Source: Holosporaceae bacterium (GTDB taxonomy: Bacteria > Pseudomonadota > Alphaproteobacteria > UBA3830). From it: DNA of 35,850 nucleotides. Positions 9,234 through 30,402 of the stretch are shown piece by piece (the first letter of the stretch is position 1; each line of letters begins with the position of its first letter). Under the pieces are notes generated by a model, which worked only from the letters and a program-made list of their open reading frames with translations, ran no database searches and was not told the origin of the DNA. The translations under genes were made by a program, and so were the position numbers. The DNA lies in assembly GCA_031267235.1 (NCBI GenBank), contig JAIRZM010000013.1, positions 1 to 35,850 of the forward strand, written 5' to 3'.

Positions 9234-10190
9234 CTAGCTGTTGAACGATTTTATCATGCCGACAATTACTGGACCTAGCATGACTATGAACAGGCATGGC
9301 ATGATGAAAAACATCATAGGCAGTGTGAGTAGGGTAGGCGCTTGGGCTGCTCTTGCTTCTGCTTCAAGCATCCTTCTCTGCCTTGATTCTACTGCTAGAT
9401 CCCTCAGGGAAGTGGAAAGTGAAGATCCGTATTCTATGGATTGGCTCAAGGTTTTGGATATGGTTTTAATCTCCAAACAGTCCGTTCTATTTTCCAAATT
9501 CTCGAAAACCTGACGATGATCCGGAATCATTTCTAATTCTATGGAGGTTAAGCTGAGTTCATCGGCCAGCAACGGATTGGAAGTTCTCAATTCGCGAGCA
9601 ATTCTTCTGATGGCTCGATTGAGGTCAAGTCCAGACTCAGTGCAAATAACCAGTAGGTCAATCAAGTCAGGAACACCGTGTTCTATGGCCTCTTTCCTTC
9701 TATTGGCCATTATTTGCAGATTTAGGTTGGTTAATTTATGTCCTCCCAATATGGCGCCTATTAGGCTAATTAACATGCAGAGTGGCAGTGGAATATCAAA
9801 ATCATTTGTGGCTAAAGTTATCAGAGCAATAAAGAATATGGCTATTGCCGATATGAGCTTTGACTTCATGAACTCTTCCAAAGCATTTCTGTGACGAATG
9901 CCCGTTTTCATCAAAAGTTCCTGCATTTCTGCTATAAGATCTTTGTTTTTTGTAGCTATGAAGTGCAGTATGCCACTAGTTCCAATGGATGGCCCGTTGT
10001 GGCTCAATCCTAAATCTCCAGTTTCTTCCTCTATGCTCTGGGTTGTGGTGGAATGTACATCTTTTCTTCTTTTGGACAATTTATAATCGCTCATGATTTG
10101 AATAGCTATTCTTGTAGCAGAATCCTTTACGGCGAATAAAGTTACAAAAGTTACCAGAAAAGTAATGATATCTATTCCAATGCCGCCCAT
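9234..10190 (-). CDS. tadC: Tad pilus inner-membrane platform protein TadC
   Basis: A 318-residue T2SSF-domain membrane protein, a partner of TadB in the pilus assembly platform that works with the CpaF ATPase. An N-terminal membrane segment is followed by a hydrophilic region, a mid-protein segment (FFIALITLATNDFDIPLPLCMLISLIGAILGG), the characteristic PDLIDLLVICTESGLDLNRAIRRIA block, a QSIEYGSSLSTSLRDLA block, and a C-terminal membrane segment (LPMMFFIMPCLFIVMLGPVIV). Its ATG comes one base after the tadB stop. It is the last gene of the cpaA-to-tadC operon; no TadD-like TPR gene follows. Confidence 0.92.
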   Translation of the reverse strand: MGGIGIDIITFLVTFVTLFAVKDSATRIAIQIMSDYKLSKRRKDVHSTTTQSIEEETGDLGLSHNGPSIGTSGILHFIATKNKDLIAEMQELLMKTGIRHRNALEEFMKSKLISAIAIFFIALITLATNDFDIPLPLCMLISLIGAILGGHKLTNLNLQIMANRRKEAIEHGVPDLIDLLVICTESGLDLNRAIRRIARELRTSNPLLADELSLTSIELEMIPDHRQVFENLENRTDCLEIKTISKTLSQSIEYGSSLSTSLRDLAVESRQRRMLEAEARAAQAPTLLTLPMMFFIMPCLFIVMLGPVIVGMIKSFNS

Positions 10191-10191
10191 A

Positions 10192-11187
10192 TTACACCTT
10201 TATTTTAGTTGCCTTGATCATCATAAATGTGCCTATGCTAAATAAGGTAACGGCTACCTTCAGTAAGGTTTGGCCAGTTCCTGGAGTAACAAATTCTTTC
10301 AAATGGTTTGGATTAATCACGGCCATAATGCCGGCAAACACAAATGGCAGTACGCTTATGACTATGGCTGACATTCTAGCTTCTGCGGACATGGCCTTCA
10401 GCTTTAGATTCAACTCCAATCTTTTACGGATTATGGAAGATAGATTTTGCAAGATTTCAGCCAGAACGCCACCATTTTCCATCTGTAAAATGAGGGCAAC
10501 AACCAAGAATCTAAATTCTTCTATGTCAATTTTATCGGCGGCCTCCAGCAAGACCTTTTCCGGCTCTATGCCGAGATCAAATTTCTGACTGATGATTCTA
10601 TATTCTGAGGCAATCGGGTCTTTAGCCTCCATACTAACGAGCTTCACTATGCGAGCTATATTTAACCCAGCCTTAACGCCGCGAATCATCATGTCAATGG
10701 CGTCTGGAAATTGCTTAAGGAATTCGGTCTTTTTCTTCTCAGCTTGACTTGCCAACAGCGTATAGGCTAAGTAGGATCCGACGCACATTCCTATGGGAAT
10801 TCCAGTGAGCGCATTCAAAAATTTAAAATGCACTATGCCGGCTGACAACATTGCTCCACCTCCACAGCATATGGCTATAAAAGCATTGACGCTTATCTCG
10901 GTGATGCCGGATTTTTTCATTATAAGCTTTATGCGATCTAGCAACTGCTGCCCTGATTCGAAATCTTGACCAAACTCCTTCATTTCCACTTGCATAAAGG
11001 TGGAGATATGATTGTTGGCCGTTTCCAATAGCTCATCCTGCTGTTTCGATAATGATTTGATGCGGGCTTCAAGTTTTTGGGATTTTCCATCGTCTTCGAT
11101 CGTTGGCTTGCTTACTTGCTTATACGCAATAAAAAAGCTGACAAACGATAACGCAAAAATCAACATACTATCAATAGCTGGTGGCAT
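10192..11187 (-). CDS. tadB: Tad pilus inner-membrane platform protein TadB
   Basis: A 331-residue T2SSF-domain protein. It has an N-terminal membrane segment, a charged, probably helical cytoplasmic region (about 30-85), two central membrane segments, the block FLKQFPDAIDMMIRGVKAGLNIARIVKLVSMEAKDPIA and a second block MENGGVLAEILQNLSSIIRKR typical of TadB, then two C-terminal membrane segments. With TadC it forms the platform that couples CpaF ATP hydrolysis to pilin extraction. The ATG overlaps the cpaF end by 17 bp, implying coupled translation; a second ATG at residue 8 is possible. Confidence 0.92.
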   Translation of the reverse strand: MPPAIDSMLIFALSFVSFFIAYKQVSKPTIEDDGKSQKLEARIKSLSKQQDELLETANNHISTFMQVEMKEFGQDFESGQQLLDRIKLIMKKSGITEISVNAFIAICCGGGAMLSAGIVHFKFLNALTGIPIGMCVGSYLAYTLLASQAEKKKTEFLKQFPDAIDMMIRGVKAGLNIARIVKLVSMEAKDPIASEYRIISQKFDLGIEPEKVLLEAADKIDIEEFRFLVVALILQMENGGVLAEILQNLSSIIRKRLELNLKLKAMSAEARMSAIVISVLPFVFAGIMAVINPNHLKEFVTPGTGQTLLKVAVTLFSIGTFMMIKATKIKV

Positions 11188-12535
11188 TTTCAGACCTATC
11201 TAAATTTTTTTCCATTGCGCCTTTCATCAGAGTCAGCAATTCTTTGTCCAGGCCGTAGGTAATGGCTTTTTCTAAAAACGCTGGTTTATCAGTTCCAGCG
11301 TCAAATCTTCCGAATACCTTATGATCCGGAGTTTCTCCCATTGGCACAAACTTGAAGAGATGCTGAAAATCGATATCGCCCCTTTCATTTATGCCCTTTA
11401 CTTCCACGATTTCTGTGAGTTTTCTTGATCCATCGTGGAGACGCTCCGTTTGCACCACGAGATTTACGGCTCCAGCGATCTGGGCTCTAACAATTTCACT
11501 GGGAAGGTCAAAACCAGACATGGCAACCATATTTTCTAGACGAATGAATGCTTCTCTGGCTTTGTTGGCGTGAATTGTGGACATTGAACCGTCGTGACCG
11601 GTGTTCATGGCCTGCAACATATCGATGCATTCTGATCCGCGGACTTCTCCGATGACGATGCGGTCCGGACGCATACGCAGGGCGTTTTTTACCAGGTCTC
11701 GAATGGTAATTTCTCCCTTTCCTTCAATGTTGGGAGGGCGACTTTCCAGCCTAACAACATGCGGCTGTTGTAATTTTAATTCTGCTGCGTCTTCGCAGGT
11801 TACTATGCGCTCTCGCGGATCGATAAGTTGGGAAAGAGCGTTAAGTAGAGTTGTTTTTCCAGAACCCGTACCTCCGGAAACTACGATATTCAATCCACAT
11901 GTCGATGCTATCTGCAGCACACGGACCATATCTTCCGTGAGAGCTCCATGTTTGGCCAATGCGTGTAAATCTAGTGCTTTTTTCGAAAATTTACGAATGG
12001 AAATGGATGCTCCATCCAGGGCAATTGGCGGAGCAACAATGTTTACGCGGCTACCATCCGGCAAGCGAGCGTCACAGAGAGGACTTGAAGTGTCAACGCG
12101 TCTTCCAACGCGATGGGCAATTCTTTGGGCTATCTGCAGCAGATGGGAATCATCTCTGAATTTTACCGGAGCCAGCTGCATTAGTCCTCTCTGCTCGATA
12201 TATATTTGGTATGGGCCATTAACGACAATGTCGGATATGGTGTCATCCTCCAGAAGAATTTCCAGCGGACCTAGCCCTATCATATCATCAACCAATTCGC
12301 GGGCAATTCCTATTTGTTCGCGTTTGGTAATTTGCGCTCTTCTTTCCTGAGCATAATCGAAGACGAACTTTTCAATTTCAGCGCGCAACTCCTGTGGACT
12401 TAGCTTGAACGCTGAAGCTAGGTTGATGCGATTAAGCATCGTTTCGTGAGCTTCCTTACGGAAAACCGTCAGTAGCGGAGATTCTTCCGCAATTTCTGGA
12501 TTCTGAGTTTGTGAAGATCCGCTTTCGGTAGCCAT
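11171..12535 (-). CDS. cpaF: Tad pilus assembly ATPase CpaF/TadA
   Basis: A 454-residue hexameric secretion ATPase of the CpaF/TadA/VirB11 class that powers pilus assembly at the cytoplasmic face. An N-terminal helical domain (IGLGPLEILLEDDTISDIVVNG, about 86-107) is followed by RLPDGSRVNIV, Walker A GGTGSGKTT (221-229), an Asp-box region VTCEDAAEL, Walker B DRIVIGEVRG (291-300) and His-box residues GHDGSMSTIHA (313-323). All catalytic motifs look intact. It lies 17 bp after cpaE and overlaps tadB. Confidence 0.96.
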   Translation of the reverse strand: MATESGSSQTQNPEIAEESPLLTVFRKEAHETMLNRINLASAFKLSPQELRAEIEKFVFDYAQERRAQITKREQIGIARELVDDMIGLGPLEILLEDDTISDIVVNGPYQIYIEQRGLMQLAPVKFRDDSHLLQIAQRIAHRVGRRVDTSSPLCDARLPDGSRVNIVAPPIALDGASISIRKFSKKALDLHALAKHGALTEDMVRVLQIASTCGLNIVVSGGTGSGKTTLLNALSQLIDPRERIVTCEDAAELKLQQPHVVRLESRPPNIEGKGEITIRDLVKNALRMRPDRIVIGEVRGSECIDMLQAMNTGHDGSMSTIHANKAREAFIRLENMVAMSGFDLPSEIVRAQIAGAVNLVVQTERLHDGSRKLTEIVEVKGINERGDIDFQHLFKFVPMGETPDHKVFGRFDAGTDKPAFLEKAITYGLDKELLTLMKGAMEKNLDRSENATSY

Positions 12536-12552
12536 TTCTACACCTCGTTAGA

Positions 12553-13803
12553 CTATGTTTTCATAAAATTTTCGGCTTTTTTCAAAAAGCTGAAGAAAGT
12601 TCCTTTGACTTTATCCATTGGCGTTTGCGTTTGTTTAAGTATTGCTTCTTCGATATGTTGATTATCTTTTTTACCCAAAATGTCTTCGGCAATAAATTCT
12701 AGTGTGTCTGTTATGGGACAATTAGATAACGCTAGCGGTTGACCTATGTTAGCGGCTGCCAAGGTTATCTGTTCGTCCAATGGCATAATGTAATCGATTT
12801 TGCTATCAATTACTCTTTCAAATGACTCTTCGCTTAGAGCTCCACTTCTGGATAATCCCACCTTATTAGCTACTATTATTATCTTCTTACCTGGTTGGGT
12901 AACATTTAAAAAATCCATCAGGCGCACGGTATTTTGGGCAGAAGTAAAACTCATCTCAACCATAATTATGAAGATATCGGTCTTGCCCATGGCCACTTTA
13001 TTTGTTTCAGAAATATCACGCTGCGAATCAATCAAAATGTAGTTGAATTGCTTTTTAACCATGCCTATGAGGGCGTCAAAAGTATTTAAATCAACGTGAA
13101 CGCCTCTCACAAGATCCACCAATCCGCCCAAATAATACAATCTTTGATCATACTTCTTTAAAATTGTCTCCACGAAATAATCATCTATTTTATCTGGTGA
13201 TTCCAGGATATCCAGGTACGCATTTTCGGCCCTAATATCCAGCATTAGATTGGCGGTACCGTATAGAAAATCCACATCCATGATAACTGCACGCTTAAAG
13301 TGCCTATTTGCCAACAGCCATCCTACATTTACAGCCGTAGTTGTGGCTCCAGCTCCGCCAACAGAGCTGATGACCTGTATCATTTTACCGGTTTTTTCTG
13401 TTACTAGCTTTTTTCCCTTTAGAGCTTCCTCCAGAGTTTGTTTTAAGAGGCTGACTCCCAATGGTTTCACAATATAATCTGAAACTCCAAGCGCTATTAG
13501 ATCCCTAAATAATCCAACTTCATTGCGACTACCGATTACCACAATGTTCATGTTGGGAGTACCTAGTTCTTTAATTTTTATTATATCGCTCAGTGGTAAT
13601 TCTGAATCTGAAATATCCACCATAAGAACCTTTGGTGTTCTATTATTTTTCAAAAAATCTATGACATCGGAAATCCTTCCCTGTTTCGCTTCGGAATAGG
13701 CCATTCCCATATCCTTAATTACGTCCAGAATAATCTGTTCTGACACTGGATCGTTGACTAAACCCATGAGGTTGTGAGGCAAATCAGCATTGGTGTTGGC
13801 CAT
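12553..13803 (-). CDS. cpaE: Tad pilus localisation ATPase-like protein CpaE/TadZ
   Basis: A 416-residue protein with an N-terminal receiver-like domain (about 10-130; ends in SDYIVKPLGVSLLKQTLEEAL) and a C-terminal MinD/ParA-like domain. The P-loop reads GGAGATT (149-155): the usual lysine is alanine, a deviation seen in many CpaE/TadZ proteins, so it may bind ATP without strong hydrolysis. Other blocks are AVIMDVDFLYGTANLMLDI and NYILIDSQRDISETNKVAM. In characterised alphaproteobacteria this protein positions the Tad machine at the pole. The ~50-residue Lys/Gln-rich tail has no assigned role. Confidence 0.93.
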   Translation of the reverse strand: MANTNADLPHNLMGLVNDPVSEQIILDVIKDMGMAYSEAKQGRISDVIDFLKNNRTPKVLMVDISDSELPLSDIIKIKELGTPNMNIVVIGSRNEVGLFRDLIALGVSDYIVKPLGVSLLKQTLEEALKGKKLVTEKTGKMIQVISSVGGAGATTTAVNVGWLLANRHFKRAVIMDVDFLYGTANLMLDIRAENAYLDILESPDKIDDYFVETILKKYDQRLYYLGGLVDLVRGVHVDLNTFDALIGMVKKQFNYILIDSQRDISETNKVAMGKTDIFIIMVEMSFTSAQNTVRLMDFLNVTQPGKKIIIVANKVGLSRSGALSEESFERVIDSKIDYIMPLDEQITLAAANIGQPLALSNCPITDTLEFIAEDILGKKDNQHIEEAILKQTQTPMDKVKGTFFSFLKKAENFMKT

Positions 13804-13821
13804 AATAAACTCCCGCCATAT

Positions 13822-14529
13822 TTAAAAAGAGCTGCCGCTTGATGAGCTACCGCTGGAGCTCATCGAGCCGCTACTACCGCTGCTGCCGCTGCTGCCGGAT
13901 GATCCAGACCCGCTGCCATTGGCTGCTGCAAGAGCATCAATGGATGACTTTGCTTCAGGTCCATTGTATTTTCGAGGAGCGACAAAATCTGCTTTATTGG
14001 CTATCATTTCCACAAGATTGTAGGCCATGGATGCGCCAAATTTTGGTATATGCTTATTAGTATCTACGTCTCCGATGTATTCTGACCATGTGTCGCAATT
14101 GGGACCTTTTGCTTCGTACTTCAATACGTCTATGCGAACTCCAATTTGAGCATCTTTGTAGACACAAATTCCGGAATTAACCACTCGGCTATCCATGAAT
14201 CCGTTTTGGCGAGTTAGATTATAAATTTGCTTTTGAGCTCCTTCCTGCAATTTTAAGGGAATGAGTTTGTTGGATACCAACATAAAGGCAATGTTTTCAA
14301 TACCTTTGCTACGGGTCTCTCTCAGTATTTTGTTCAGCTTATCGAGAGTGCTTTCGGAAAAACCAAAGTCATGATTTGTGTTGAAAAAATGTACACATTT
14401 ATGTTCTTTTGCATCTACTTCATTGTCTTCTGACGTATGTCCGTCGTCGGGCAAGTATTGCTTTTCGCATCCTCCGCAGAGAAGAAGCCAGATCGCTGCT
14501 GCATTGCAAAATTTTGTTGTTCTTAGCAT
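13822..14529 (-). CDS. cpaD: CpaD-like Tad pilus lipoprotein with Gly/Ser tail
   Basis: Assigned to CpaD by operon position and by the C-terminal block KFGASMAYNLVEMIANKADF, which fits the family's FGCATQxNLAxMVADPxDL pattern. The N-terminus is a signal peptide ending in a CGGC box, an imperfect lipobox. The last ~30 residues are almost pure Gly and Ser (about 13828-13918), unusual for CpaD. In the family the protein supports the CpaC secretin. Start choice: a GTG at 14547 overlaps the cpaC stop by one base, but the ATG at 14529 has GGGG eight bases upstream and gives a clean signal peptide, so I prefer the ATG. Confidence 0.8.
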   Translation of the reverse strand: MLRTTKFCNAAAIWLLLCGGCEKQYLPDDGHTSEDNEVDAKEHKCVHFFNTNHDFGFSESTLDKLNKILRETRSKGIENIAFMLVSNKLIPLKLQEGAQKQIYNLTRQNGFMDSRVVNSGICVYKDAQIGVRIDVLKYEAKGPNCDTWSEYIGDVDTNKHIPKFGASMAYNLVEMIANKADFVAPRKYNGPEAKSSIDALAAANGSGSGSSGSSGSSGSSGSMSSSGSSSSGSSF

Positions 14530-14546
14530 GTTTATAACCCCTAACA

Positions 14547-16052
14547 CTATCTAATCATAAAACCAGCGCTATGCCTTCTCTTAACGTTCTTATGAAATTT
14601 TCGCGTAAGAATAGACTCAAGAGGAGAATACATTCTGGGAACCAAATCCACAGGTGTTTTTAACGGTTTTGAGGATGGCTTTATGATGTAAGGCGTTATG
14701 ATTATTATGAGCTCTTTTTCCACTAAATTAATATCTGAATTACGAAACAGACTTCCCACTAACGGTAGATCTGACAAAAATGGAGTTTCATAGGAAGAGG
14801 TGCTTTTGTTCGTTTGTATCAATCCGGCGATGGCTAAGCTTTGGCCGCTTCCGAGTTCTACTGTTGTTTCAGCTTCTTTGGTAGTTAGGGAAGGTATATT
14901 GGACTTTGCATTTTCGAAAGATACAGTGCTAACCACCGGCTTAACGGTAATATTTATTCTATCCTCGGATATTACGACCGGCGTAAACTCAATGGACGTG
15001 CCCCAGGATTTAAATTCAGTTGTATTGGAGTCGGTTCCCGATTGTTTTACTTCATACCCCTGCTCGCCACCGGACTTGAATGTGGCCGTTTTTCCAGATA
15101 GTGCGATTAAAGTTGGTTCAGCTAAAACTAGGGCGAACGATTCGCTAGCAAGAGCTTCTATGAGGCCAGAAAGCCCGTTAGATGCTCCGCCGCCATGAAC
15201 GAGCCAACGTCCTCCGGAAAGCGTTTTCCCCATGATACCACCTTGCTCCGTGATAGCCGTTTGCACTGCAGAAATTTCTGTAGCAAATACCGGAAAAGCC
15301 TGGCTATCACCATGCATAAATCCATAGGTAAGACCACTAATATCTTTGTTGTGGGACAATACACGCCAATTTATTCCTAAGCTTTTGGTTAAATTTCTTG
15401 ATACTTCAGCTATTTTCACCTTTAGCATAACCTGTGTTGCGGTTTCAATAGACAATTTATTGATAATTTTAGCGCTCTCGACGAATCTTCCGACTATATC
15501 CTGCACATCCGATGCAACTTCTGGAGATGGGACTTTTCCCCTAAGTATTATAGAGTCATCCACCGACACTATGCTGACTTCTATGCCCGGATACATCTTA
15601 TCCATGGCTTCCTTAATGGCCTTGATTGGATAGGTAACTTTTATCCGATAATCCGCTATCACTACCCCGTCTTTGCCGTGCACAACTAGAGGCGTAACGC
15701 CGGGCGCTAGTCCCATTAGATACAGCGAACTATCATTCAGCATATCAACGTCAGCTACTTCTGGATTAGGGATAAAAATTTCCTGCGGTTTATTTTTCAG
15801 TTTAATGAAGTTTACGGAATTTACCTCTATAATCTTTTCATTGCCATCGAGTCGCTGCCCGGCCACGGTTTGCTGCATACTGTCGGCATTTTTCCCAGCA
15901 TCTTTAGGTTTGGCGTTTTTTTTATCATTTCCGGAGACCTGTTTATTTTTGACGTATTTCTGCGCATGCTTAGGTTTTTGCGCAGCGCTTGCTGCATCAA
16001 TAAAAGCAAGACATGTCAAAAAAAACAAACCTACAAGACTACTATTCCTCAT
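14547..16052 (-). CDS. cpaC: Tad pilus secretin CpaC/RcpA
   Basis: A 501-residue outer-membrane secretin. The signal peptide ends near ASAA (residue 23). A Lys/Asn-rich linker precedes the N0-like domain (EIFIPNPEVADVDMLNDSSLYLMGLAPGVTPLVV), then a BON-type domain (IEVSIVSVDDSIILRGKVPSPEVASDVQDI), then the secretin domain containing VMLKVKIAEVSRN, GQSLAIAGLIQ and FLSDLPLVGSLFR, with terminal strands KELIIIITPYII. It should form the pore through which the pilus or its secreted parts leave the cell. Length and domain order are normal; it lies between cpaB (87-bp gap) and cpaD. Confidence 0.95.
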   Translation of the reverse strand: MRNSSLVGLFFLTCLAFIDAASAAQKPKHAQKYVKNKQVSGNDKKNAKPKDAGKNADSMQQTVAGQRLDGNEKIIEVNSVNFIKLKNKPQEIFIPNPEVADVDMLNDSSLYLMGLAPGVTPLVVHGKDGVVIADYRIKVTYPIKAIKEAMDKMYPGIEVSIVSVDDSIILRGKVPSPEVASDVQDIVGRFVESAKIINKLSIETATQVMLKVKIAEVSRNLTKSLGINWRVLSHNKDISGLTYGFMHGDSQAFPVFATEISAVQTAITEQGGIMGKTLSGGRWLVHGGGASNGLSGLIEALASESFALVLAEPTLIALSGKTATFKSGGEQGYEVKQSGTDSNTTEFKSWGTSIEFTPVVISEDRINITVKPVVSTVSFENAKSNIPSLTTKEAETTVELGSGQSLAIAGLIQTNKSTSSYETPFLSDLPLVGSLFRNSDINLVEKELIIIITPYIIKPSSKPLKTPVDLVPRMYSPLESILTRKFHKNVKRRHSAGFMIR

Positions 16053-16139
16053 ACTACACTCTCCACATCCGCATGAATGCTACAACCACTGCCCAAATCA
16101 CATCAGCCTGCTACCTATTTCGTATACTTCGCCGCTCCT

Positions 16140-17537
16140 CTACTTAGATGATCTTCGTGAAGATGAGGCTGCACTACTAGAGCCTGCCTTCGCTTCACCA
16201 TCTGAAGCAGATGCAGACCTGCCGCTCGAGGCAGAATCTAACTTATCCCCATTGCTATTAAACTCTACTTCATTGGGGGTTAATTTTCTGTATAAACGAA
16301 CAGATCTTTTCTCGGGCTCCTCTTCTCCAACGGCTTTTCCACTGACAAACTCTATTTTCCCTGTTCTTGGATTTTTTACATTTCCACCGGAGCCTTTGCC
16401 ATTTGAGTTTCCTTTTTCCGAAAGAGAGTTGCCAAGCTCAGGTGAATCTCCACCATTGAGCGAATTTATATTCCTTATGAGCATATCTAACTCTTTTTCT
16501 TCAGTTTCTTTGGCTTCCTTAGCTGATATTATGGCCTCGGCTGCACTATGCTTATTCATGTTCATGATGTGCTGCAGCACTGCGTCCCGGACTAGCACAT
16601 CTTCGGCTTCAGCTTTTTCTTTTCCCGCTTCCTCAGGCGAAATGCCTTCTTCCTGGTTACGTATGGATAATGTTACGCCACCGTTTCCAAGCTGTTTCAA
16701 CATAATGTCCACCAGCTCCTCGCGAACTTCTAGAGTTACATTTTTAGGCATGAGCAACCCGCCAACTGCTGATCCTAGATTGATATTTCCCAGCAATCCT
16801 TCGTCCTTTTTTTCTGTTTCTTCAAATTTTTTTTCGAATTTAGTTATGCCGTCGATGGCCAATATTTTTATAGCAACATATTTATGACTTTTAATTTTTT
16901 CTCCTCTCTGTTCCATGATGAGAACATCCACTATGTTGCCAGGTTCCATCATGCTGGAGGAACTGGCTGTTTTCTGATCTATTGGAAATGTTATGGCCCT
17001 CATCCCTTTCTTAACGGATATGGTTCTGCTTTCCTGTTCTTCTTTTAACTTCCTTTGCTGTTCTTTTTTGCGTGCTTCTTCTTTCTTTTTGCGCTCTTCT
17101 TCTGCTTTTTTCTGAGGATCTTCGTTGGTCAACATGCGCATTGTTAGCGGGATTCCAGATTGAATGTTGCTGATGGCCCACATTTTCATGGCATTAGCGT
17201 AATCAGATCCGTTGTTCAAAGCGACTCCCTGCTCGTCTTTAGCTATAAAGTACGGTTGCAGAGCCGCTTCTGGCCATTTTTTCCAGGCAAGACTATCCAT
17301 TTGTATTTTTCCATCTTTTTTGATGTCTTTGGTGACCATGAGAACCTGAACATCTTTAGCTCTTCTGATTTCTTTGGCCATCAGGGGAATATCTGGCATT
17401 GATAGTTCTTTGGTGACTGCCGCTTGATTAGAGGATTCGGAATCACCTGGTCCGAACAGAAGTCTTACAACTATTGTGATTACAAGCGCTATAGCGGATG
17501 CTATCACTATAGGAAGTGTATTAGTCTTGTCTTTCAT
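16140..17537 (-). CDS. cpaB: Tad pilus protein CpaB/RcpC with extended tail
   Basis: A periplasmic, inner-membrane-anchored SAF-domain protein. One N-terminal membrane helix (LPIVIASAIALVITIVVRLLF) is followed by VLMVTKDIKKDGKI, an IQSGIPLT block, and the MRAITFPIDQKT ... GNIVDVLIMEQ block of the family. At 465 residues it is longer than the usual 250-300. The extra length comes from a Lys/Glu/Gln-rich, probably coiled-coil insert (about 140-170) that splits the SAF region, and a C-terminal tail from about residue 320 rich in Gly, Asn, Ser and charges ending in Ser/Ala/Arg repeats. AGGTGG precedes the ATG. It lies 8 bp after cpaA. Confidence 0.9.
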   Translation of the reverse strand: MKDKTNTLPIVIASAIALVITIVVRLLFGPGDSESSNQAAVTKELSMPDIPLMAKEIRRAKDVQVLMVTKDIKKDGKIQMDSLAWKKWPEAALQPYFIAKDEQGVALNNGSDYANAMKMWAISNIQSGIPLTMRMLTNEDPQKKAEEERKKKEEARKKEQQRKLKEEQESRTISVKKGMRAITFPIDQKTASSSSMMEPGNIVDVLIMEQRGEKIKSHKYVAIKILAIDGITKFEKKFEETEKKDEGLLGNINLGSAVGGLLMPKNVTLEVREELVDIMLKQLGNGGVTLSIRNQEEGISPEEAGKEKAEAEDVLVRDAVLQHIMNMNKHSAAEAIISAKEAKETEEKELDMLIRNINSLNGGDSPELGNSLSEKGNSNGKGSGGNVKNPRTGKIEFVSGKAVGEEEPEKRSVRLYRKLTPNEVEFNSNGDKLDSASSGRSASASDGEAKAGSSSAASSSRRSSK

Positions 17538-17545
17538 ACTACCAC

Positions 17546-18115
17546 CTAACCACTCAATCTCTCAATCATCACATAAAAACCACCGCACGATAATGCGACC
17601 CCGTATGGTATTTCCTGCTTCATCGTACCGGTGATGCATCGCTTTAGCGCCACCATTCTTTTGTCGATCCTACTCAATGAAAGTAAAACAATATTTAAAA
17701 AAAATGATTTATGTCGGTTTTTATTTGAAATGTATAATGAAATTACTATGGTTCTGCGCCAAAAAAAGATTCGTTGACCTAGGGCCAGGTAAAAGCATGA
17801 TAGAACTAAGCCGCCAATGGAAACTCCTAGCAAAAATTCCTGAGCATTATTTTCCGAAAACAATAGCAAAGGACAAAGCAATTTTACGTCGCCTCCGCCG
17901 ATTAGGTTATATCTATTAAAAATCAACGTGATAGCAAAAATTGCGATGAAAACCTCCAGCGCATTCCAAAAGTTATTGCCGGATATTCCGAGAGCGCAGG
18001 ATAATAGATACAGGCTGAGTAAAAACAGTGTGTATTCGTTTTCTATGCGAAAAAAAAGAAAATCATTTGCGCTGATTATCAGTAAAACTACGCCAAATAC
18101 TAACCAAACAGCCAC
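17546..18115 (-). CDS. cpaA: Prepilin peptidase CpaA/TadV
   Basis: A 189-residue polytopic membrane aspartyl protease (A24 family). The two catalytic aspartates are visible: Asp18 in ISANDFLFFRIEN and Asp76 in GGGDVKLL. The family cleaves class III signals of Flp pilin and of TadE/TadF pseudopilins; TadE at 19349 carries such a site. The GTG start is supported by AGGAGG seven bases upstream (18123-18128). It is the first gene of the operon, where pilA would precede it in Caulobacter; here it is divergent from the ATPase zeta gene instead. An 8-bp palindrome, CGTTAACG, sits just upstream at 18139-18146. Confidence 0.93.
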   Translation of the reverse strand: MAVWLVFGVVLLIISANDFLFFRIENEYTLFLLSLYLLSCALGISGNNFWNALEVFIAIFAITLIFNRYNLIGGGDVKLLCPLLLFSENNAQEFLLGVSIGGLVLSCFYLALGQRIFFWRRTIVISLYISNKNRHKSFFLNIVLLSLSRIDKRMVALKRCITGTMKQEIPYGVALSCGGFYVMIERLSG

Positions 18116-19348: not shown

Positions 19349-20137
19349 CTACTTAGGCGGGTCGTCGCTGAATAACCCTGGGTTAGGAATAAAGGTTACG
19401 GTGTTGCGAAAAAGAATGTTATCTCCGGATAATGGCAATTGCAGCGGCAACATGTGAAATCCAAATAATTTCCTGGGATTATCGGAGACATTTTTCTGAT
19501 CCGCATACTTAAACTCTTTTTTGGTGAAAAAAGCAGTCATCAGCAGCATTTTTATCTCATTTATTTGTATTTTCAAGTCCGGATGAAGTGACGTCGATGC
19601 TAAGTCTTGTCCATGCTGGTATGACTTCCCAGTCCAAGTGCGAAAATCAGCGATAGTTAGTTCTGATGAAGAAGTGTTCTTTTCGTCCAACGATCCACCG
19701 CTGCCAATCGGAGAAGTGGCGTTTTCTCCGGAAACAAACAAGCTCCATACGACTTTACAGTAGTTATTTCCCGTTCCTTTTACATAAATGAGTACCGTAA
19801 TCGGAAGATGTCCAAGCGGAAGCGTGTCCGCTTTAGTTAACTGCTGCTGTCCAGAATAATAATTAATAAAAGCAGAATAGTTTATTCTTTTAACGTCTTC
19901 CAGTGATATCCTCTTGTTCTCTCGGTTTTTGCTAACATTTTGAATCATGCTGATGGCCATTAGGGCAGAATTTTTTGTTTTTAGCTTCATGCGCGCGTAA
20001 TTTGGATAATCAAGGACGTAATATAATATTATTAGCAAAACTGGTATTGAGAAGGCGAACTCCACCATAATGGAGCCACGTGGTCCGCCAAAATTGATGC
20101 GGAACTGTGGTTTTTTTTCTCTCTGCAGCGCGTTCAT
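19349..20137 (-). CDS. tadE: TadE-like pseudopilin
   Basis: About 262 residues, longer than most TadE proteins (~150-200). It has a class III prepilin signal: a positively charged leader ending PRG, then SIMVEF with Glu at +5 (Gly21|Ser22, Glu26), followed by one membrane helix (IPVLLIILYYVLDY). CpaA should cleave after Gly21. The rest is periplasmic and of unknown fold. Start choice: a strong promoter places the transcript start near 20155, so the first ATG (20152) would be nearly leaderless; the ATG at 20137 has AGGA six bases upstream and is preferred. An A8 run lies at codons about 7-9. Confidence 0.85.
   Translation of the reverse strand: MNALQREKKPQFRINFGGPRGSIMVEFAFSIPVLLIILYYVLDYPNYARMKLKTKNSALMAISMIQNVSKNRENKRISLEDVKRINYSAFINYYSGQQQLTKADTLPLGHLPITVLIYVKGTGNNYCKVVWSLFVSGENATSPIGSGGSLDEKNTSSSELTIADFRTWTGKSYQHGQDLASTSLHPDLKIQINEIKMLLMTAFFTKKEFKYADQKNVSDNPRKLFGFHMLPLQLPLSGDNILFRNTVTFIPNPGLFSDDPPK
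20111..20118 (-). repeat. A8 homopolymer near the 5' end of tadE
   Basis: Eight A bases on the coding strand encode Glu-Lys-Lys shortly after the start. A one-base slip would stop TadE synthesis. Variation is not shown by one sequence. Confidence 0.5.
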
Positions 20138-20161
20138 CATTTGTCCTGACATTTAAGGCAA

Positions 20162-23723: not shown

Positions 23724-26700
23724 TCATTCTTCCACGCGAGCGTCTAGATGTGCGGCGAATGATTTTATGTCGGCTGCGATTTCCTGTAGTTTTGCCAGCA
23801 GATCAGCTTCGGACGTCGCAGAGTACGTTTTTACATCGCTGCCGCAGGAGTTAAGCGTGTTGTCTGTCGTGTTATATTTGATTACGTAGACGCGAGTATT
23901 CGTCGGAAAGGATGACTTGAATTTTGAGCAGGCTACACTGGTGACATTTGCGGCGGCCATGTCCGAAGCTGTGTTTAATGTTGAGTTTAGAGTCCCAGAC
24001 GTTACCTGCAATCCGCTATTTTGCAAAACATGATTGATGGGAAGGGTATAGCCGCTAAAAACTAAAGCTACGCTGGCGCTTTTCACATCGAAGCGAGCTC
24101 TGTCGGTTTCGAACTTTCCCCATGGCAGAAATACACGATGCAATCCCGTAAAAAAGTAGGTTCCGCTTGGATAATTGCCATAATCGACCGTCGCGGACGG
24201 ATAAAACCAGGAAATGCTAGGATTATTACTATTCCAGTTCATCATTTGCATAAAATAATCTCCGGCAACGGCGTCCGTCCTGTACAATTGATTGTTGGCG
24301 CCGGCGCTTGTCCAATATTTTAGGTGATCTATCAATTCATATTTATGATGGGACTCCAGACTGCCGCCTATGTCTTTTCCGAAAGTAACATTCCCATAGG
24401 TCTTCGGTCTACTGCTCTCGTTTTTGTTGAAATCAACAATGCGTACATTTTTTAGCTGATCGTCAATTATGTTGGGATGCTTATGGCGTATAATTTTTGA
24501 CATATTTGTCATTGCTACTTCTGAAATTATGATATCCGTTAGAGAAAGATTGATCTTATAGGTTCCGTCTCCCTGCGGTTCATATAAATGGGATGACGGA
24601 TCTATGCTAACAGTCTGGTAATCATAGCCAGTTACTGTGGTTGAAGCGCTTCCATTAGATGCAGTTGTATATTTTATTGTTCCGGATGGCTCAAGAGTTG
24701 GAGCTACGGTTACGCTAAGGCTTCCATCGCCGCAGAAGGCGAGCCAGTCGCCTCCGCTCGACAACTTTCCGACGCATTCATTGTTTTTGATCTGACTTGC
24801 AGTCGCGGATGAACTATAGGATTTTGTACCCAGATTTGCGAAGAAGAAATTGTAGATGCGATATTTCAAAGATGAGCAAGGTATGCACTTTCTATAGCAC
24901 CCGCAACTTAAATCCTTCATGAAACAGCTATAATAACTTCCATCATTATGGGTGGTTCCTTCTGGACAGTTGCTAACTCTTCCCTGACAATAGTAAATCT
25001 CCGAATGTGAGCCCACTGTCGTCTCATATGATGCGCCAAGCTGTCTAAATCTTCCGGTAAAAATGACGATTTTGTCTGCGGCCGCGGGCGAGTAACTTCC
25101 GAAGTTTGCAATGTTATAATTGCTTGTGCTTGTTATTTTACTTGCTAATGGCCAATCGCCGCTGGGAGGCTCCATCGAGATATACGTATCAACCGACTCG
25201 TGGGCATGGTCGCCAAATGGACCGCCGCCATGCATGAGAAATCTAGAATTTTTTGTGAGACCATGGCAAACCACGAAAAAATTAAAGGCTTCGACTTGAC
25301 CTGACGAAAGCGGCGAGTAAACGCTTCCTGAGTTGTGTACAGTCCTGGTGTCGATGCAGGGATCCCAATATTTGCTGTCTGTATAGTATCCATCGTTTGT
25401 TATAAGCGTTTTTAATCCGGAGGATCCATAGCCGTAATATCCATAACCTCGGAGAATTTGGTTCGAGAGCGTAGTGGAGGATATACTTGCGTAATTTAGA
25501 CTATATTTAAGCTTGTAAAGAGAAAGATTATGGCCAAAATTTACTCCGCCGGTGGTGGCGTTGCCGGAAGCAGCTACATTATTGTGAGCCCAGTTCCACA
25601 TGGTTTTCGTTGGACCACTGAAGGTGAAGGTCGTAGTCTTTTCCAAAAGATAGGGAGTATCTAGAGGAACTGTTATGCCGCCGGTTTTGCAATCAGATAC
25701 GCCATTGCTGCTGTAAAATGTGACGTTGCTTCTGGCGCTCCCCTTTGCTTTAATAGTAAGGGGAGCTTTTACATTGGTTGTGATAACGGCGCTTTGGTTG
25801 CTTTTTCCCAGAGCGTTTGTGGTTCCTGATATGCTGCATGTCGGCGTGATGGTCTCACAGGGCAGGTTTGTGATTTCCGCGGAAATGATCTTAAGATTGG
25901 ACGTCTGGAAGGATATCGTGTAATTGCCGTAGGCGTCCTTGGTATCCGATATTTGCTCCGGCACAATGTAGAATGTTTGTTGACCTTCAAGCTTATACTC
26001 TACATTATTTTGGAATGGCTCTTTATTTCCAACAAATTCAAACGTTGCGCCCGCTTGGCTACCGCTTAGATTGTTGATATTTGTGAATTTAATGTAACCA
26101 TTACTAGAGTTCGGAGCGACAGTCACGTCCAGTTTCCCATCGCCGCAGAAGGCAAGCCAGTCTCCACCACTCGACAACTTTCCGATGCATTCGTTATTTT
26201 TGATCTGAGTTTCCGTTGCGGATGAACTGTAGAATTTGGTATCCAGATTTACAAAGAAGAAATTGTAGAGGCGGTATCTATAATCGCATAGGGTTGTTTC
26301 CCGGCACATCCTTTTGCACTGGCAGCTGCCGCCGTTAAGGCCACAGCTATAAGCATCTCCCTCATTTGAGTAGCCGTGTGAACAGTCATTAACGCCGCCA
26401 CAACCACAACCACATGCGCCGCTGCTATGTTTACACCCAGAAGTACACCCTGAGTATGCCCCCACAGTCTGCTCCTTTATTACATCGCACGTACTTTTAA
26501 ACCTACCGGTAAAAACTACGATTCGGTCGGTAGCTATCAGTTTCCGGCACATCCTTTTGCATTCGCAGCTGTTGCCGTTAAGGCCACAGCTATAAGGATT
26601 TCCCTCATTTGAGTAGCCGGGTGAACAGTCATTAACGCCGTTACCGCCACATCCACCTTTAAATGGATTAAAGTATGCCCCTACTGTCTGCTGTTCCACA

Positions 26701-29309
26701 ATATTATTAGATTCATTCAAATAACTTGCGAAATCTGCAATGTTATACTTGCTTGTGCTTGTGATTTTGCTTACTTGAGGCCAGTTGCCGCTCGGAGGTT
26801 CCACTGAAATATATGGATCAACCGGATCTGCAGTGTCGTATTTACTGAATGATCCGCCCCCATACAGGAGGAATCTCGAATTTTTCGTGAGGCCATAGCA
26901 AACCACAAAGAAGTTATAGGCGTCGACTTGACCTGAGGAAAGCGGCGAGTAGCTGCCTCCTGAGTTGTGTCCAGTTTTTGTGTCGATGCAGGGATCCCAA
27001 TAGGAACTGCTATTGGTGACGTAGTTATTGTTTTTTATCAGGGTTTTTGATCCATCATAATTTCCATACCCTCGGAGAATTTGATTCGTTAGCGTAGCAG
27101 AGGATATATCTGCGTAATTAAAGCTGTATCTCAGCTTATAGAGAGAAAGATTGTGGCCAAAATTTACTCCGCCGGTGTTGGCGTTACCGGAAACAGCTAC
27201 ACTATTGTGAGCCCAATTCCACATGGTTTTCGTCGGACCGCTAAAGGTGAACGTTGTCATCTTTTCCAAAGGATATGGTGTGTCAAGTGCAACCGCTGTG
27301 CTGCCAACCTTGCAATCGGACACCTGATTGCTGCTGTAAAAGGTAACAAATGAGTTCGTATTCACGACAATTTTGACTAGTCCCTTTTTGGGAAATGTCA
27401 GGTTACAGGTGGCGCTATCGGGAGAAATATAGCATCCGCTGACGGAGTTATAGGCAACGGAGCCGGAAGTTACGCTGAAGGTAATGGCGCCCTTTATGCC
27501 TTTGAGCGGAGTAGTAAGAGCGTTGTTGGTGGGCGCGCCGTAGTTGCGGCTAAAATCTATATTATCGGCTTCAAACATAGGAATTTCTGAAGCGTCGTTA
27601 TTGAATCCGAGGTAGGTGAGCTCCTGCGGTTCAAAGTGATCAGGAGCGTTAACGACAAGGATTACGGCACGCTTTTTTGAGCTGCGGGCTGGATGGGCAA
27701 ACTTTTGACCACTTTTGAATGCCATTTCCGGATGTGCAGTCCAACTACTGAGGAGATTATGCGCCCACTGCACCGCTAAAAATAGGAAATTCGATTTATT
27801 TTTAGGATCATTGATGGGTCTGATGAGGCTGAGATCGTAGATTACGTTTTCCAAATCGTCGGTGAGCTCGGTGATGAAATAGGGATTGGCCATGTAAGTG
27901 GGGCATGTCCTTTCGCAGGCCCCAGCCAATATGTTGCAGTGCCCAAGATAGCAGGGATTGAGATTCATGCGAAGAAACCTTTTTGCTCCAGTTGGTTCTT
28001 CATTAGATATAAGGAGCGAGCTGAGTCTGGTGGAATCAGTGGAAGGAATTGACGTGCTGGCGGATCCCCTATAAATATTCACGCCTCTGTAGGATTCCGT
28101 TATACCGCAGCGAAACATGATCGGAAAACCTACATCAACGCTTTTCCGTCCCCATTCGTATAGAACATCAATGGTGGCGATGTCTCCGCCCATATGTCCA
28201 TCGGTGCCGTAGGCAGCAGCCTGTTTTATGTATGGTGGATTTGGTACAGCCTCCTTAAGCGAGCTTCCAGATCCTGTTGTCATCGCCGGAATAGCTATGG
28301 TCCAATCTTCGCGATTGGGCGGAATCGAGATTTTTGCAGAGTATGGCACAACGCCAACGGCTACTCCGGCAACACGAGAAAAATTACTTTTCAAAAAAGT
28401 CTGATAGGAGCGCGCTATTGCCACAATTGGCGTCAACGTGGTTGAATTTGGAGCAATGAGCGTCCCAGAATTGCTGTTGTTAGAGGTGCAGGCGGCATGA
28501 TTCGTTGGCAAAGTCAAAATTATGTCCACATCACAGCGAGCGGGATATGCTCTGACCGTCTTGCCCAAGCATTTAACTTCGCATTTTATGTAATTGCTTG
28601 CATTATTGCTGCTGGTATTTAGGGAAAGGAGGAGATTCTTGCTGTTTTCGTTTAGGGCAGGATCATAATAGACGGTGCTGTAAGCTTCTGTCGAGCCGGA
28701 TAATGTTCGCATTTTAAAGGAAAGCTTGCCGCCGGAGGGATTAAAGACAGCATTAATTAGTGGAAAATCATCGCAAAATAAGGAAGAATTCGTTATTGGC
28801 GTTGTGTCTCTATGGACGTACTCCGCGAAAAATGTTCTGGAGTCAGCTAGATTGTTCAGTCCGTAAGAGGATAGAGCAATGTACATTTTTGCCAGGGTGA
28901 ATGAGTCGTTATCGGCAGAGGTCAGGGAAGAAATGTCGGCGCTCAAGTTTTTCTCCAGATTATAGACCGTCTGATAAGCTGCTGCGATGTGCATATCATG
29001 TTTGAGTTCGAAAGCTCGATCATTAAGAGCCTGTGCTGCAGCGGAGTATACTTTGTCTTTTTGTTTGTCCCAGGTTTTTGCCGGATTATATTTTCTCAGC
29101 GCCGCCTGTCCAATTGCCAGCGAAGCGCTGGTCTTAATTGTTGAGCTATGAGATAATTTCAGTTTCTTTACGCTATAATCTATCGACATTAGCACTATGG
29201 GTATCATGAGGGCCACCAGAATCAGCACGTAGCCGGATTTTTGGCGCGAGAAATACTGAAATTTTAGAATTTTTTGGAATTGCAGAAGCTTTTTAAATTT
29301 ATTGATCAT
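23724..29309 (-). CDS. Giant TadG-like protein with duplicated Cys-rich modules
   Basis: An 1861-residue envelope protein. The N-terminus has the TadG anchor: a basic stretch, then SGYVLILVALMIPIVLMSIDYS, lacking the Glu+5 pilin signal. A VWA-like domain follows, but degenerate: strand VDIILTLPTNHAA (about 261-272) lacks the metal-binding DxSxS, and RAVILVVNAPDHF (about 547-559) replaces the usual TDG strand. Its last strand and helix (RVYVIKYNTTD ... LLAKLQEIAADI) appear only at about 1806-1850, so some 1,230 residues are inserted. The insert holds two copies of a ~210-residue module (654-864 and 1195-1407), three six-cysteine motifs, two YNFFFxN...CGDG blocks and a C-terminal part shared with the gene at 3-2135. 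Start: the ATG at 29309 has GGAG seven bases upstream, better than TTG at 29330. Probable surface adhesin, by inference. Confidence 0.8.
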   Translation of the reverse strand: MINKFKKLLQFQKILKFQYFSRQKSGYVLILVALMIPIVLMSIDYSVKKLKLSHSSTIKTSASLAIGQAALRKYNPAKTWDKQKDKVYSAAAQALNDRAFELKHDMHIAAAYQTVYNLEKNLSADISSLTSADNDSFTLAKMYIALSSYGLNNLADSRTFFAEYVHRDTTPITNSSLFCDDFPLINAVFNPSGGKLSFKMRTLSGSTEAYSTVYYDPALNENSKNLLLSLNTSSNNASNYIKCEVKCLGKTVRAYPARCDVDIILTLPTNHAACTSNNSNSGTLIAPNSTTLTPIVAIARSYQTFLKSNFSRVAGVAVGVVPYSAKISIPPNREDWTIAIPAMTTGSGSSLKEAVPNPPYIKQAAAYGTDGHMGGDIATIDVLYEWGRKSVDVGFPIMFRCGITESYRGVNIYRGSASTSIPSTDSTRLSSLLISNEEPTGAKRFLRMNLNPCYLGHCNILAGACERTCPTYMANPYFITELTDDLENVIYDLSLIRPINDPKNKSNFLFLAVQWAHNLLSSWTAHPEMAFKSGQKFAHPARSSKKRAVILVVNAPDHFEPQELTYLGFNNDASEIPMFEADNIDFSRNYGAPTNNALTTPLKGIKGAITFSVTSGSVAYNSVSGCYISPDSATCNLTFPKKGLVKIVVNTNSFVTFYSSNQVSDCKVGSTAVALDTPYPLEKMTTFTFSGPTKTMWNWAHNSVAVSGNANTGGVNFGHNLSLYKLRYSFNYADISSATLTNQILRGYGNYDGSKTLIKNNNYVTNSSSYWDPCIDTKTGHNSGGSYSPLSSGQVDAYNFFVVCYGLTKNSRFLLYGGGSFSKYDTADPVDPYISVEPPSGNWPQVSKITSTSKYNIADFASYLNESNNIVEQQTVGAYFNPFKGGCGGNGVNDCSPGYSNEGNPYSCGLNGNSCECKRMCRKLIATDRIVVFTGRFKSTCDVIKEQTVGAYSGCTSGCKHSSGACGCGCGGVNDCSHGYSNEGDAYSCGLNGGSCQCKRMCRETTLCDYRYRLYNFFFVNLDTKFYSSSATETQIKNNECIGKLSSGGDWLAFCGDGKLDVTVAPNSSNGYIKFTNINNLSGSQAGATFEFVGNKEPFQNNVEYKLEGQQTFYIVPEQISDTKDAYGNYTISFQTSNLKIISAEITNLPCETITPTCSISGTTNALGKSNQSAVITTNVKAPLTIKAKGSARSNVTFYSSNGVSDCKTGGITVPLDTPYLLEKTTTFTFSGPTKTMWNWAHNNVAASGNATTGGVNFGHNLSLYKLKYSLNYASISSTTLSNQILRGYGYYGYGSSGLKTLITNDGYYTDSKYWDPCIDTRTVHNSGSVYSPLSSGQVEAFNFFVVCHGLTKNSRFLMHGGGPFGDHAHESVDTYISMEPPSGDWPLASKITSTSNYNIANFGSYSPAAADKIVIFTGRFRQLGASYETTVGSHSEIYYCQGRVSNCPEGTTHNDGSYYSCFMKDLSCGCYRKCIPCSSLKYRIYNFFFANLGTKSYSSSATASQIKNNECVGKLSSGGDWLAFCGDGSLSVTVAPTLEPSGTIKYTTASNGSASTTVTGYDYQTVSIDPSSHLYEPQGDGTYKINLSLTDIIISEVAMTNMSKIIRHKHPNIIDDQLKNVRIVDFNKNESSRPKTYGNVTFGKDIGGSLESHHKYELIDHLKYWTSAGANNQLYRTDAVAGDYFMQMMNWNSNNPSISWFYPSATVDYGNYPSGTYFFTGLHRVFLPWGKFETDRARFDVKSASVALVFSGYTLPINHVLQNSGLQVTSGTLNSTLNTASDMAAANVTSVACSKFKSSFPTNTRVYVIKYNTTDNTLNSCGSDVKTYSATSEADLLAKLQEIAADIKSFAAHLDARVEE
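24873..24998 (-). repeat. Cys-rich motif, copy 3
   Basis: Encodes C-x6-C-x13-C-x6-C-x-C-x3-C followed by CSSLKYRIYNFFF. It is diverged from copies 1 and 2 in sequence but keeps the cysteine spacing, which suggests a conserved disulfide-bonded fold. Confidence 0.7.
25089..25727 (-). repeat. Large module, copy 2 (~210 codons)
   Basis: Encodes VTFYSSNGVSDCK ... FSGPTKTMWNWAHN ... GGVNFGHNLSLYKL ... YWDPCID ... SPLSSGQV ... FFVVCHGLTKNSRFL ... KITSTSNYNIANF. It lines up along its whole length with 26720-27350, with most residues identical. Confidence 0.85.
26301..26397 (-). repeat. 97-bp direct repeat, Cys motif (unit b)
   Basis: Matches 26544-26640 at 90 of 97 positions, without gaps, at an offset of 243 bp (81 codons). 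It encodes most of the C-x5-C-x12-C-x6-C-x-C-x3-C motif (GVNDCSHGYSNEG ... CQCKRMCR). Confidence 0.9.
26544..26640 (-). repeat. 97-bp direct repeat, Cys motif (unit a)
   Basis: Partner of 26301-26397. It encodes most of the C-x7-C-x12-C-x6-C-x-C-x3-C motif (GVNDCSPGYSNEG ... CECKRMCR). Each unit is preceded in the protein by EQ(Q)TVGAY, so the duplicated unit is about 81 codons long. Confidence 0.9.
26720..27350 (-). repeat. Large module, copy 1 (~210 codons)
   Basis: Encodes VTFYSSNQVSDCK ... FSGPTKTMWNWAHN ... GGVNFGHNLSLYKL ... YWDPCID ... SPLSSGQV ... FFVVCYGLTKNSRFL ... KITSTSKYNIADF, the partner of 25089-25727. The duplication is intragenic and in frame. Confidence 0.85.
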
Positions 29310-29417: not shown

Positions 29418-29621
29418 ATTAAGACAAATAGTCAAAGCATCATTCGAGACAATTGAGGGGAATAGCGCAAAAATATCTGTTCCAGCGATCATACCTAAAC
29501 CACAAAAACAACAAAACAAATTTTAACGGCCAAACTAAAAGATAAAGTACATCTTGAAGAAAAACAATGTAATAAAATTTATAAAAAATTGTAGATTTGC
29601 TGGTGCGTTTTTGCTTATACT

Positions 29622-29637
29622 TCCGATCATAATCGGA
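29622..29637 (+). promoter_or_regulatory. Small hairpin overlapping the dsbA-like ribosome site
   Basis: TCCGAT-CATA-ATCGGA has perfect 6-bp arms and a 4-base loop. The right arm includes the first bases of the GGAGG (29635-29639) that serves the GTG at 29647, so folding could limit translation. The stem is short and mostly A/T, so it may be weak. Confidence 0.35.
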
Positions 29638-29646
29638 GGTGTTTCC

Positions 29647-30402
29647 GTGAGACCAGACGTGCGATCGCTATCAATTTTTGCGCTGTGCGCGATATTATCT
29701 GTTCTGTTAGAGAGCGTTGTCCATGGCGCGGAAACGCGAATTTTCAGAAAAAAAAGCGTTTCAACGGTGGGCGGTCCTTCCAAACTCAGCAATGAACGAA
29801 AGACTGGTCTGGATGAATCGTTTCAGGAAAGTTTAGCGAAGCTGCGCATTCCAGATAATTATCGATTAAATGAAGTAATTATTGGGAATAAGCACGCGCC
29901 ACGCACCATCATCGTATATTTATCCTTCACCTGCGGTCATTGTAAAGATTTTTTCAACAATGAACTTCCAAAAATCCGGAAAAAGTACATTGATTCAGGA
30001 AAAATTAGGATATATCTAAGGAATTATCTGGATGATCTCGGGGCGCTGGAAGCCGCCGTTCTGGTCCGATGTCTGGGAGGAGAATCCTTGAGCACAACCC
30101 TTGAGTTATTTCAAAAAGTGTTCGATAATCAAAAGGAATGGCAAAAATCAAAGGAGCCTCGAAAGTTTCTAGAAAATATTTTCAAGGCCTACGGCAAGAA
30201 CAAAATTGACGTCTGCACCAAGAAAACGAAAATCTCTGCCGGATTAATGAAAGAGCAACAACGAGCGCACGAGTTGGAAATAATGCAGGTTCCGGCCTTT
30301 GTGATTGACGGTAAGATTTATCAGGGCAATCTGACCTGTGAAAAGCTGGAAGAAATTCTAATGCTAAATCTCACTTTAAAGTTGCCAGAATCACCGAAAT
30401 AA
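29647..30402 (+). CDS. DsbA-like thiol:disulfide oxidoreductase
   Basis: A 251-residue periplasmic thioredoxin-fold protein. The signal peptide is MRPDVRSLSIFALCAILSVLLESVVHGA, cleaved near residue 28. The active site is C96-G-H-C99 in SFTCGHCKDFF, with a helical insert and the cis-proline Pro216 in QVPAFVIDG. This is the DsbA/thioredoxin_4 layout; it should introduce or rearrange disulfides in exported proteins. Start: the GTG at 29647 has GGAGG seven bases upstream and gives a clean signal peptide; an upstream TTG at 29554 would add 31 residues and has no ribosome site. It is divergent from the cysteine-rich TadG-like giant, a likely client. No dsbB is in the window. Confidence 0.88.
   Translation: MRPDVRSLSIFALCAILSVLLESVVHGAETRIFRKKSVSTVGGPSKLSNERKTGLDESFQESLAKLRIPDNYRLNEVIIGNKHAPRTIIVYLSFTCGHCKDFFNNELPKIRKKYIDSGKIRIYLRNYLDDLGALEAAVLVRCLGGESLSTTLELFQKVFDNQKEWQKSKEPRKFLENIFKAYGKNKIDVCTKKTKISAGLMKEQQRAHELEIMQVPAFVIDGKIYQGNLTCEKLEEILMLNLTLKLPESPK

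Follow-up and report, generated by a model that had tools for sequence, protein, structure and literature searches.

To our knowledge, the targets of Tad pilus tips are mostly unknown, although Tad pili themselves are widespread. CpaL and the Kil TadG-like proteins have been placed at the tip of the Tad pilus by structural modelling (PMC12607857, PMC12075869), and genetic evidence indicates that Kil tips decide prey recognition (PMC12075869). In Caulobacter, cpaL is an orphan gene, located away from the tad operon (PMC12607857). Deletion of the insert in the VWA domain of ComC impairs adhesion-related functions (PMC10374093). Here we describe a giant TadG-like protein encoded in the window (the whole stretch of 35,850 nucleotides that was analysed, contig JAIRZM010000013.1 of assembly GCA_031267235.1, Holosporaceae bacterium). 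The explanation that we favour, with a probability of roughly 0.74, is that the giant is a TadG/CpaL-type minor pilin of the Tad pilus, with predicted processing and predicted presence in the pilus, and that it would act as a tip adhesin in which an inserted head sets the specificity and the VWA serves as its socket; the tip location and the adhesion are extrapolated from the known systems.

The gene lies on the minus strand, from an ATG at 29309 to a stop codon ending at 23724, and encodes 1861 aa, exactly as the sequence-only reading had it. The mechanical open reading frame call begins at a TTG seven codons before this ATG (1868 aa); all residue numbers given here refer to the 1868-aa frame, those of the sequence-only reading being 7 lower. 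The gene and its main parts are as follows:

23724..29309, minus strand: putative giant TadG-type minor pilin, whole gene (open reading frame; relatives in 24 of 25 genomes of the GTDB family)
28956..29309, minus strand: N-terminal leader, hydrophobic pilin-type helix and start of the pilin-like module (residues 8-125; TadG profile match, conserved SGYvLIL anchor)
27606..28562, minus strand: predicted first half of the VWA, beta1 to beta4, MIDAS residues replaced (residues 257-575; alpha1-beta2 match to TadG, fold of an insert-less relative, motif columns)
23976..27605, minus strand: insert (putative head) of about 1,210 residues in the beta4-alpha5 loop (residues 576-1785; length variation at the same site, unlike TadG)
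23745..23975, minus strand: predicted second half of the VWA, with alpha5, beta5 and the last strand and helix (residues 1786-1862; match to the TadG end, pairing in the model of a relative)

Relatives of the giant were found in 24 of the 25 searched genomes of its GTDB family (its own included) and in none of 16 genomes from other families. TadB is encoded in all 25 family genomes and RcpA in 23 of them, and eight genomes of the same order (families f2 and f3) have neither TadB nor a giant relative. One family genome with tad gave no match to the giant (G011), and none was found in an order-mate with a tad locus (G027). A search of the genome contigs with the giant alone as query retrieved no relatives; scanning with the family profile yielded 56 loci, spread over 35 assemblies, and 14 assemblies carry at least two copies. 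A chance open reading frame was rejected because of the family-wide conservation, and an insertion unique to the window's genome was rejected as well. Named relatives come from Holosporaceae or from unplaced alphaproteobacterial MAGs, many of them with titles that mention roe deer, red deer, water buffalo or yak; the rest, with codes such as Cd354 or Nc350, we take to be of termite-gut origin, which is read from the codes and absent from the records. The carriers, found in the guts of termites and of ruminants, probably reside within protist hosts, as deduced for the relatives from the known biology of Holosporales (PMC11909080). Three giants are disrupted by a frameshift or an in-frame stop (L107:8916-14875, L091:4161-9346 and L082:9011-14371), and L107 seems to have lost a short beta1 stretch; decay, assembly error or switching may be the cause.

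To assess descent from TadG, we fetched and aligned ten ordinary alphaproteobacterial TadG proteins (532 columns) and compared profile with profile. Three regions of the giant family matched, namely, the N-terminal anchor (39-128 of the family profile against TadG 38-115; Prob 93.8, E = 1.7e-7), alpha1-beta2 of the VWA (Prob 31, E = 5e-4) and the C-terminal end (TadG columns 437-524 of 532; Prob 96.3, E = 1.9e-9). The three matches are collinear, whereas the inserts, used as a control, gave no match to the TadG profile (E = 0.69). The elements that the sequence-only reading had picked out by eye, a TadG anchor (about 29-125), the first VWA strands (about 257-575), the last VWA strands and helices (about 1786-1862) and a large modular insert between the two halves (about 576-1785), are all present. 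The ordinary TadG profile in turn reaches the solved VWA pilus protein Mfa5 in the PDB (E = 2.8e-9). HMMER searches of the PDB with the family profiles retrieved no VWA, and the window protein has no match at E ≤ 1 in Pfam, including its VWA models, so the recognition by eye went further than HMMER did; nor does the protein match NCBIfam or PHROGs. Pfam Tad (PF13400) stays under threshold throughout the window's genome, which reflects a database threshold and not a biological trait. Judged by sequence, the giant family is too diverged for recognition by the single Tad profile of Pfam. The N-terminal hydrophobic helix is of pilin type and homologous to that of TadG; a Gly-Tyr motif precedes it, and Glu5 is absent, likewise in the ordinary TadG rows of the alignment. 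It counts against the tip-adhesin explanation that TadG profiles match only in pieces and that Pfam Tad stays under threshold.

The relationship between the two ends could be addressed with two complete relatives in which a large insert is missing: L117, of 688 aa, has none, and L114, of 667 aa, has one of 69 residues. Both align to the two ends of the giant and skip the middle. In place of a head, L114 (L114:2568-4568) carries a low-complexity, mostly Asp/Ser repeat some 70 residues long. A structure prediction for the VWA portion of L117, which drew on 57 natural sequences and involved no splicing of ends (pTM 0.83), shows a complete VWA fold built from both ends. The N2 VWA of collagen VI matches this model with Z = 20.0 and an rmsd of 2.4, 184 of its 188 residues being aligned within model range 39-384, and Z = 18-20 is reached by Mfa5, SpaC and integrin I domains; PilB, SpaC, Mfa5 and PitA are all among the structural matches. 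The matched ranges, such as 39-384, span the insertion point of the giants, which falls between the model's strand 257-264 (beta4) and helix 294-316 (alpha5). In the classical VWA topology the beta4-alpha5 loop borders the MIDAS face. As shown on these relatives, the VWA of the giant would thus comprise residues of about 257-575 and 1786-1862. The sequence-only reading had staked itself on the two ends pairing, and in L117 they form one VWA; its description of the VWA as degenerate fits the metal site, where five ligands are replaced, but not the fold, which is complete in the L117 model.

At this one site, the insert varies in length from −3, 69, 126, 371 and 395 up to 1628 aa among the 32 relatives that have both halves. 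The copies L093 and L095, encoded in one genome (JAGCFW), are 62% identical over the 775 residues up to the insert; within the insert, similarity is confined to two short stretches (99 and 74 residues) of about 30% identity. Heads have been exchanged between copies. In L103 the insert of 371 aa is predicted to form a six-bladed propeller-like head at residues 638-886 (mean pLDDT 77.9), with a fold match of Z = 23.7 over 243 residues, and strands from modules X and B (see below) lie on either side of the propeller; the fold search with L103 was filled by propeller matches and says nothing on the VWA of that protein. Other relatives match BNR-type propeller families. The earlier proposal of a VWA base carrying a new head in one loop agrees with the single VWA formed by the ends of L117 and with the separate beta-propeller of L103, the display role itself being presumed. 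Propeller-like stretches in the inserts of L104, L094 and L080 match phrog_8700, a phage family, with E-values down to 1.8e-42. The insert of one relative matches Pfam Macin, an invertebrate Cys-rich antimicrobial peptide (1.4e-10); this insert was not located among about two dozen inserts checked. In the tree of the VWA first half, L117 and L114 fall into separate giant clades (SH-aLRT 96 and 97), so that the head has been lost at least twice, and their nesting among giants indicates loss of the head rather than an ancestral headless state. Both have intact open reading frames but, given their long branches, may be under relaxed constraint.

The head in the window is modular:

27369..27533, minus strand: neck module X (residues 600-654; recurs in relatives with other heads)
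26691..27368, minus strand: head module A, copy 1 (residues 655-880; 73% identical to copy 2 over 213 aa)
26283..26690, minus strand: two Cys-rich modules (residues 881-1016; mutual identity 55-60%)
25851..26282, minus strand: module B, copy 1 (residues 1017-1160; 45% identical to copy 2; last neck element in L083, L103, L105 and L110)
25035..25745, minus strand: head module A, copy 2 (residues 1196-1432)
24870..25034, minus strand: third Cys-rich module (residues 1433-1487)
24495..24869, minus strand: module B, copy 2 (residues 1488-1612)
23976..24494, minus strand: module D (residues 1613-1785; common to the second giant at 27-2135)

Measured module by module, this head contains modules duplicated in tandem (A1 and A2 share 73% identity as protein and 78% as DNA, B1 and B2 45% as protein), and 39 of the 51 cysteines of the protein lie within residues 600-1780. 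No match was found for the head in Pfam or PHROGs, including none of propeller type. Modules X and B, which recur around different heads, may form a neck. The second giant is represented in the window by its C-terminal part (27-2135, plus strand), cut off by the contig start; residues 1486-1868 of the first giant match it at 43%. The N-terminal half of a giant (L044:13835-15526), cut off by the end of contig C16, has the same orientation, and the two pieces may be one gene split by a contig gap.

At the five MIDAS positions, ordinary TadG proteins have D, T/S, S, T and D, whereas the same columns of the giant family are occupied by P (53 of 53), N (50 of 52), A (45), N (53 of 54) and N (51 of 53). 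The columns of the two alignments were paired by eye around conserved strands and not by profile-profile comparison, and the fourth position is the least certain. The ligand set DxS/TxS, T and D of the PilB, SpaC and RrgA type is thus missing, as the sequence-only reading had noticed for DxSxS, and the VWA should no longer bind a ligand through a metal. The former MIDAS looks like a rebuilt, conserved site rather than a product of drift, and such uniform replacement suggests that a VWA can stay under selection as a scaffold. The near-invariance of the replacements, in the part of the protein that is by far the best conserved, could also imply a retained role, in which case the VWA would still be the working part (a force sensor or metal-free binder, as has been suggested for CpaL and PilY1) and the insert would chiefly act as a spacer or a shield. 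That two lineages have retained the VWA while carrying hardly any head, or none, would fit such a role. However, every metal ligand has been lost, and the inserts are of great size, have moved between copies and contain whole folded domains, the propeller among them, features that a mere spacer would not need; we regard this alternative as unlikely.

Under the tip-adhesin explanation, the N-terminal helix and the pilin-like module would place the giant, together with TadE, at the pilus tip, as extrapolated from the published models of TadG, CpaL and Kil. Above the pilin-like module, the complete VWA would form a rigid, metal-free two-strand socket. The loop that holds the head follows the strand of the last metal ligand, so that the head, whose site is established, presumably takes over the outer, ligand-binding face. 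Since copies have traded heads with one another, a single pilus platform can bear tips that differ in specificity. The beta-rich and Cys-rich tandem duplication of the window's head is probably closed by disulphides, possibly with the help of the DsbA-like protein encoded next to the giant, and would most likely bind surfaces of the host protist or of neighbouring cells.

The genomic setting bears on the pilus role, and the features around the giant are:

9234..18115, minus strand: tad machinery, with two TadB/TadC-type proteins, CpaF, CpaE, CpaD, RcpA, RcpC/CpaB and a prepilin peptidase (Pfam matches)
19349..20152, minus strand: TadE-like minor pilin (Pfam TadE E = 0.0012, below the curated cut-off; anchor related to that of the giant)
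29554..30402, plus strand: DsbA-like thiol-disulfide protein, divergent neighbour of the giant (NCBIfam NF041057 E = 1e-15, below the curated cut-off)

A complete tad locus, with RcpA as its secretin, ends with the genes for the TadE-like protein, a protein of 1096 aa and, last, the giant; the same genome, of reduced, Holosporaceae type (0.71 Mb, about 80% complete), encodes a major Flp pilin, on contig C15, as well as the tad pilus machine. The 1096-aa protein (20305-23595, minus strand) has a signal-like start and no family match in Pfam or NCBIfam; its relatives occur in 18 of 41 family genomes, and one adjoins another giant (L109:1871-5005). An enoyl-CoA hydratase gene lies on the opposite strand within the locus (18576-19322, plus strand). 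Nearly all relatives of the giant are located away from the tad operon, which also speaks against the tip-adhesin explanation, though cpaL is an orphan too. The two tad-bearing genomes that gave no giant relative (G011 and G027), and the lack of a Pfam or PHROG match for the window's head, count on the same side. This dispersal, along with a sequence beyond the reach of Pfam Tad, would suit a large surface or periplasmic descendant of TadG that has abandoned its role in the pilus. Against such a change stand the conserved pilin-type anchor, the co-occurrence of the copies with tad machinery and the position of the window's giant in a tad locus with TadE, and we consider it somewhat less probable even than a working VWA. 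That the C-terminal end has a different fold, or that the gene arose by fusion, the VWA being incomplete, is very improbable and the former was rejected, since, although no Pfam VWA model matches any part of the protein, this end matches the VWA end of TadG and completes the VWA in the insert-less relative L117.

A more specific form of the tip-adhesin explanation, which we put forward tentatively, is an exchangeable-tip system with a metal-free P-x-N...N...N latch socket, where unrelated folded heads of up to about 1,600 residues, among them propellers and Cys-rich beta modules, would be swapped into one loop by recombination between paralogues, giving obligate symbionts of guts and protists a repertoire of Tad tips. 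As the family combines a single conserved socket with many heads and includes two lineages that have become headless, a role of the head in setting the target can be put to the test. The family is also a way into the question of how reduced Holosporaceae could attach to their hosts in the guts of termites and ruminants, and related bacteria could grip different targets with the same pilus.

Among known systems, CpaL of Caulobacter crescentus is alike in its pilin-like module, its C-terminal VWA split by an insert, its predicted position at the Tad tip and, like most giant relatives, its orphan gene (PMC12607857). It differs in an intact MIDAS and in an insert of 180 residues with two beta-barrels, located after the first 56 VWA residues and facing away from the MIDAS (PMC12607857). 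In the giant family the MIDAS is gone, and the main insert, rather than lying early in the VWA (behind some 56 residues) as in CpaL, follows beta4, beside the old MIDAS; it can be as long as about 1,630 residues and has been exchanged between copies. The KilN/TadG tips of Myxococcus and other bacteria are likewise large TadG-like minor pilins with a variable domain, several paralogous tips per genome and many predicted disulphides, but their variable domain is terminal and has no known fold, whereas the heads of the giants are nested inside a VWA conserved across copies (PMC12075869). In ComC of Acinetobacter baumannii, a pilus-tip VWA is a scaffold for lineage-specific adhesion insertions, as shown by deletion; ComC belongs, however, to the PilY1 family and a type IVa pilus, its insertion is of about 110 residues (deleted 156-266) and its MIDAS is present (PMC10374093). 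The adhesins PilB (Streptococcus sanguinis), SpaC, Mfa5 and PitA share a VWA fold on a pilus subunit, as seen in solved structures, but adhere, at least in the case of PilB, through a metal-dependent MIDAS, the ligands of which the giant family lacks. A VWA split by a domain in a pilus-tip protein is therefore known. The sequence-only reading had set the architecture against the usual intact-length VWA of TadG proteins; a split VWA is already published for CpaL and, on a smaller scale, for ComC. The size, the different loop, the uniform, metal-free and apparently rebuilt site and the family-wide exchange of heads are not found in the papers cited here, and set the giant family apart from these systems.
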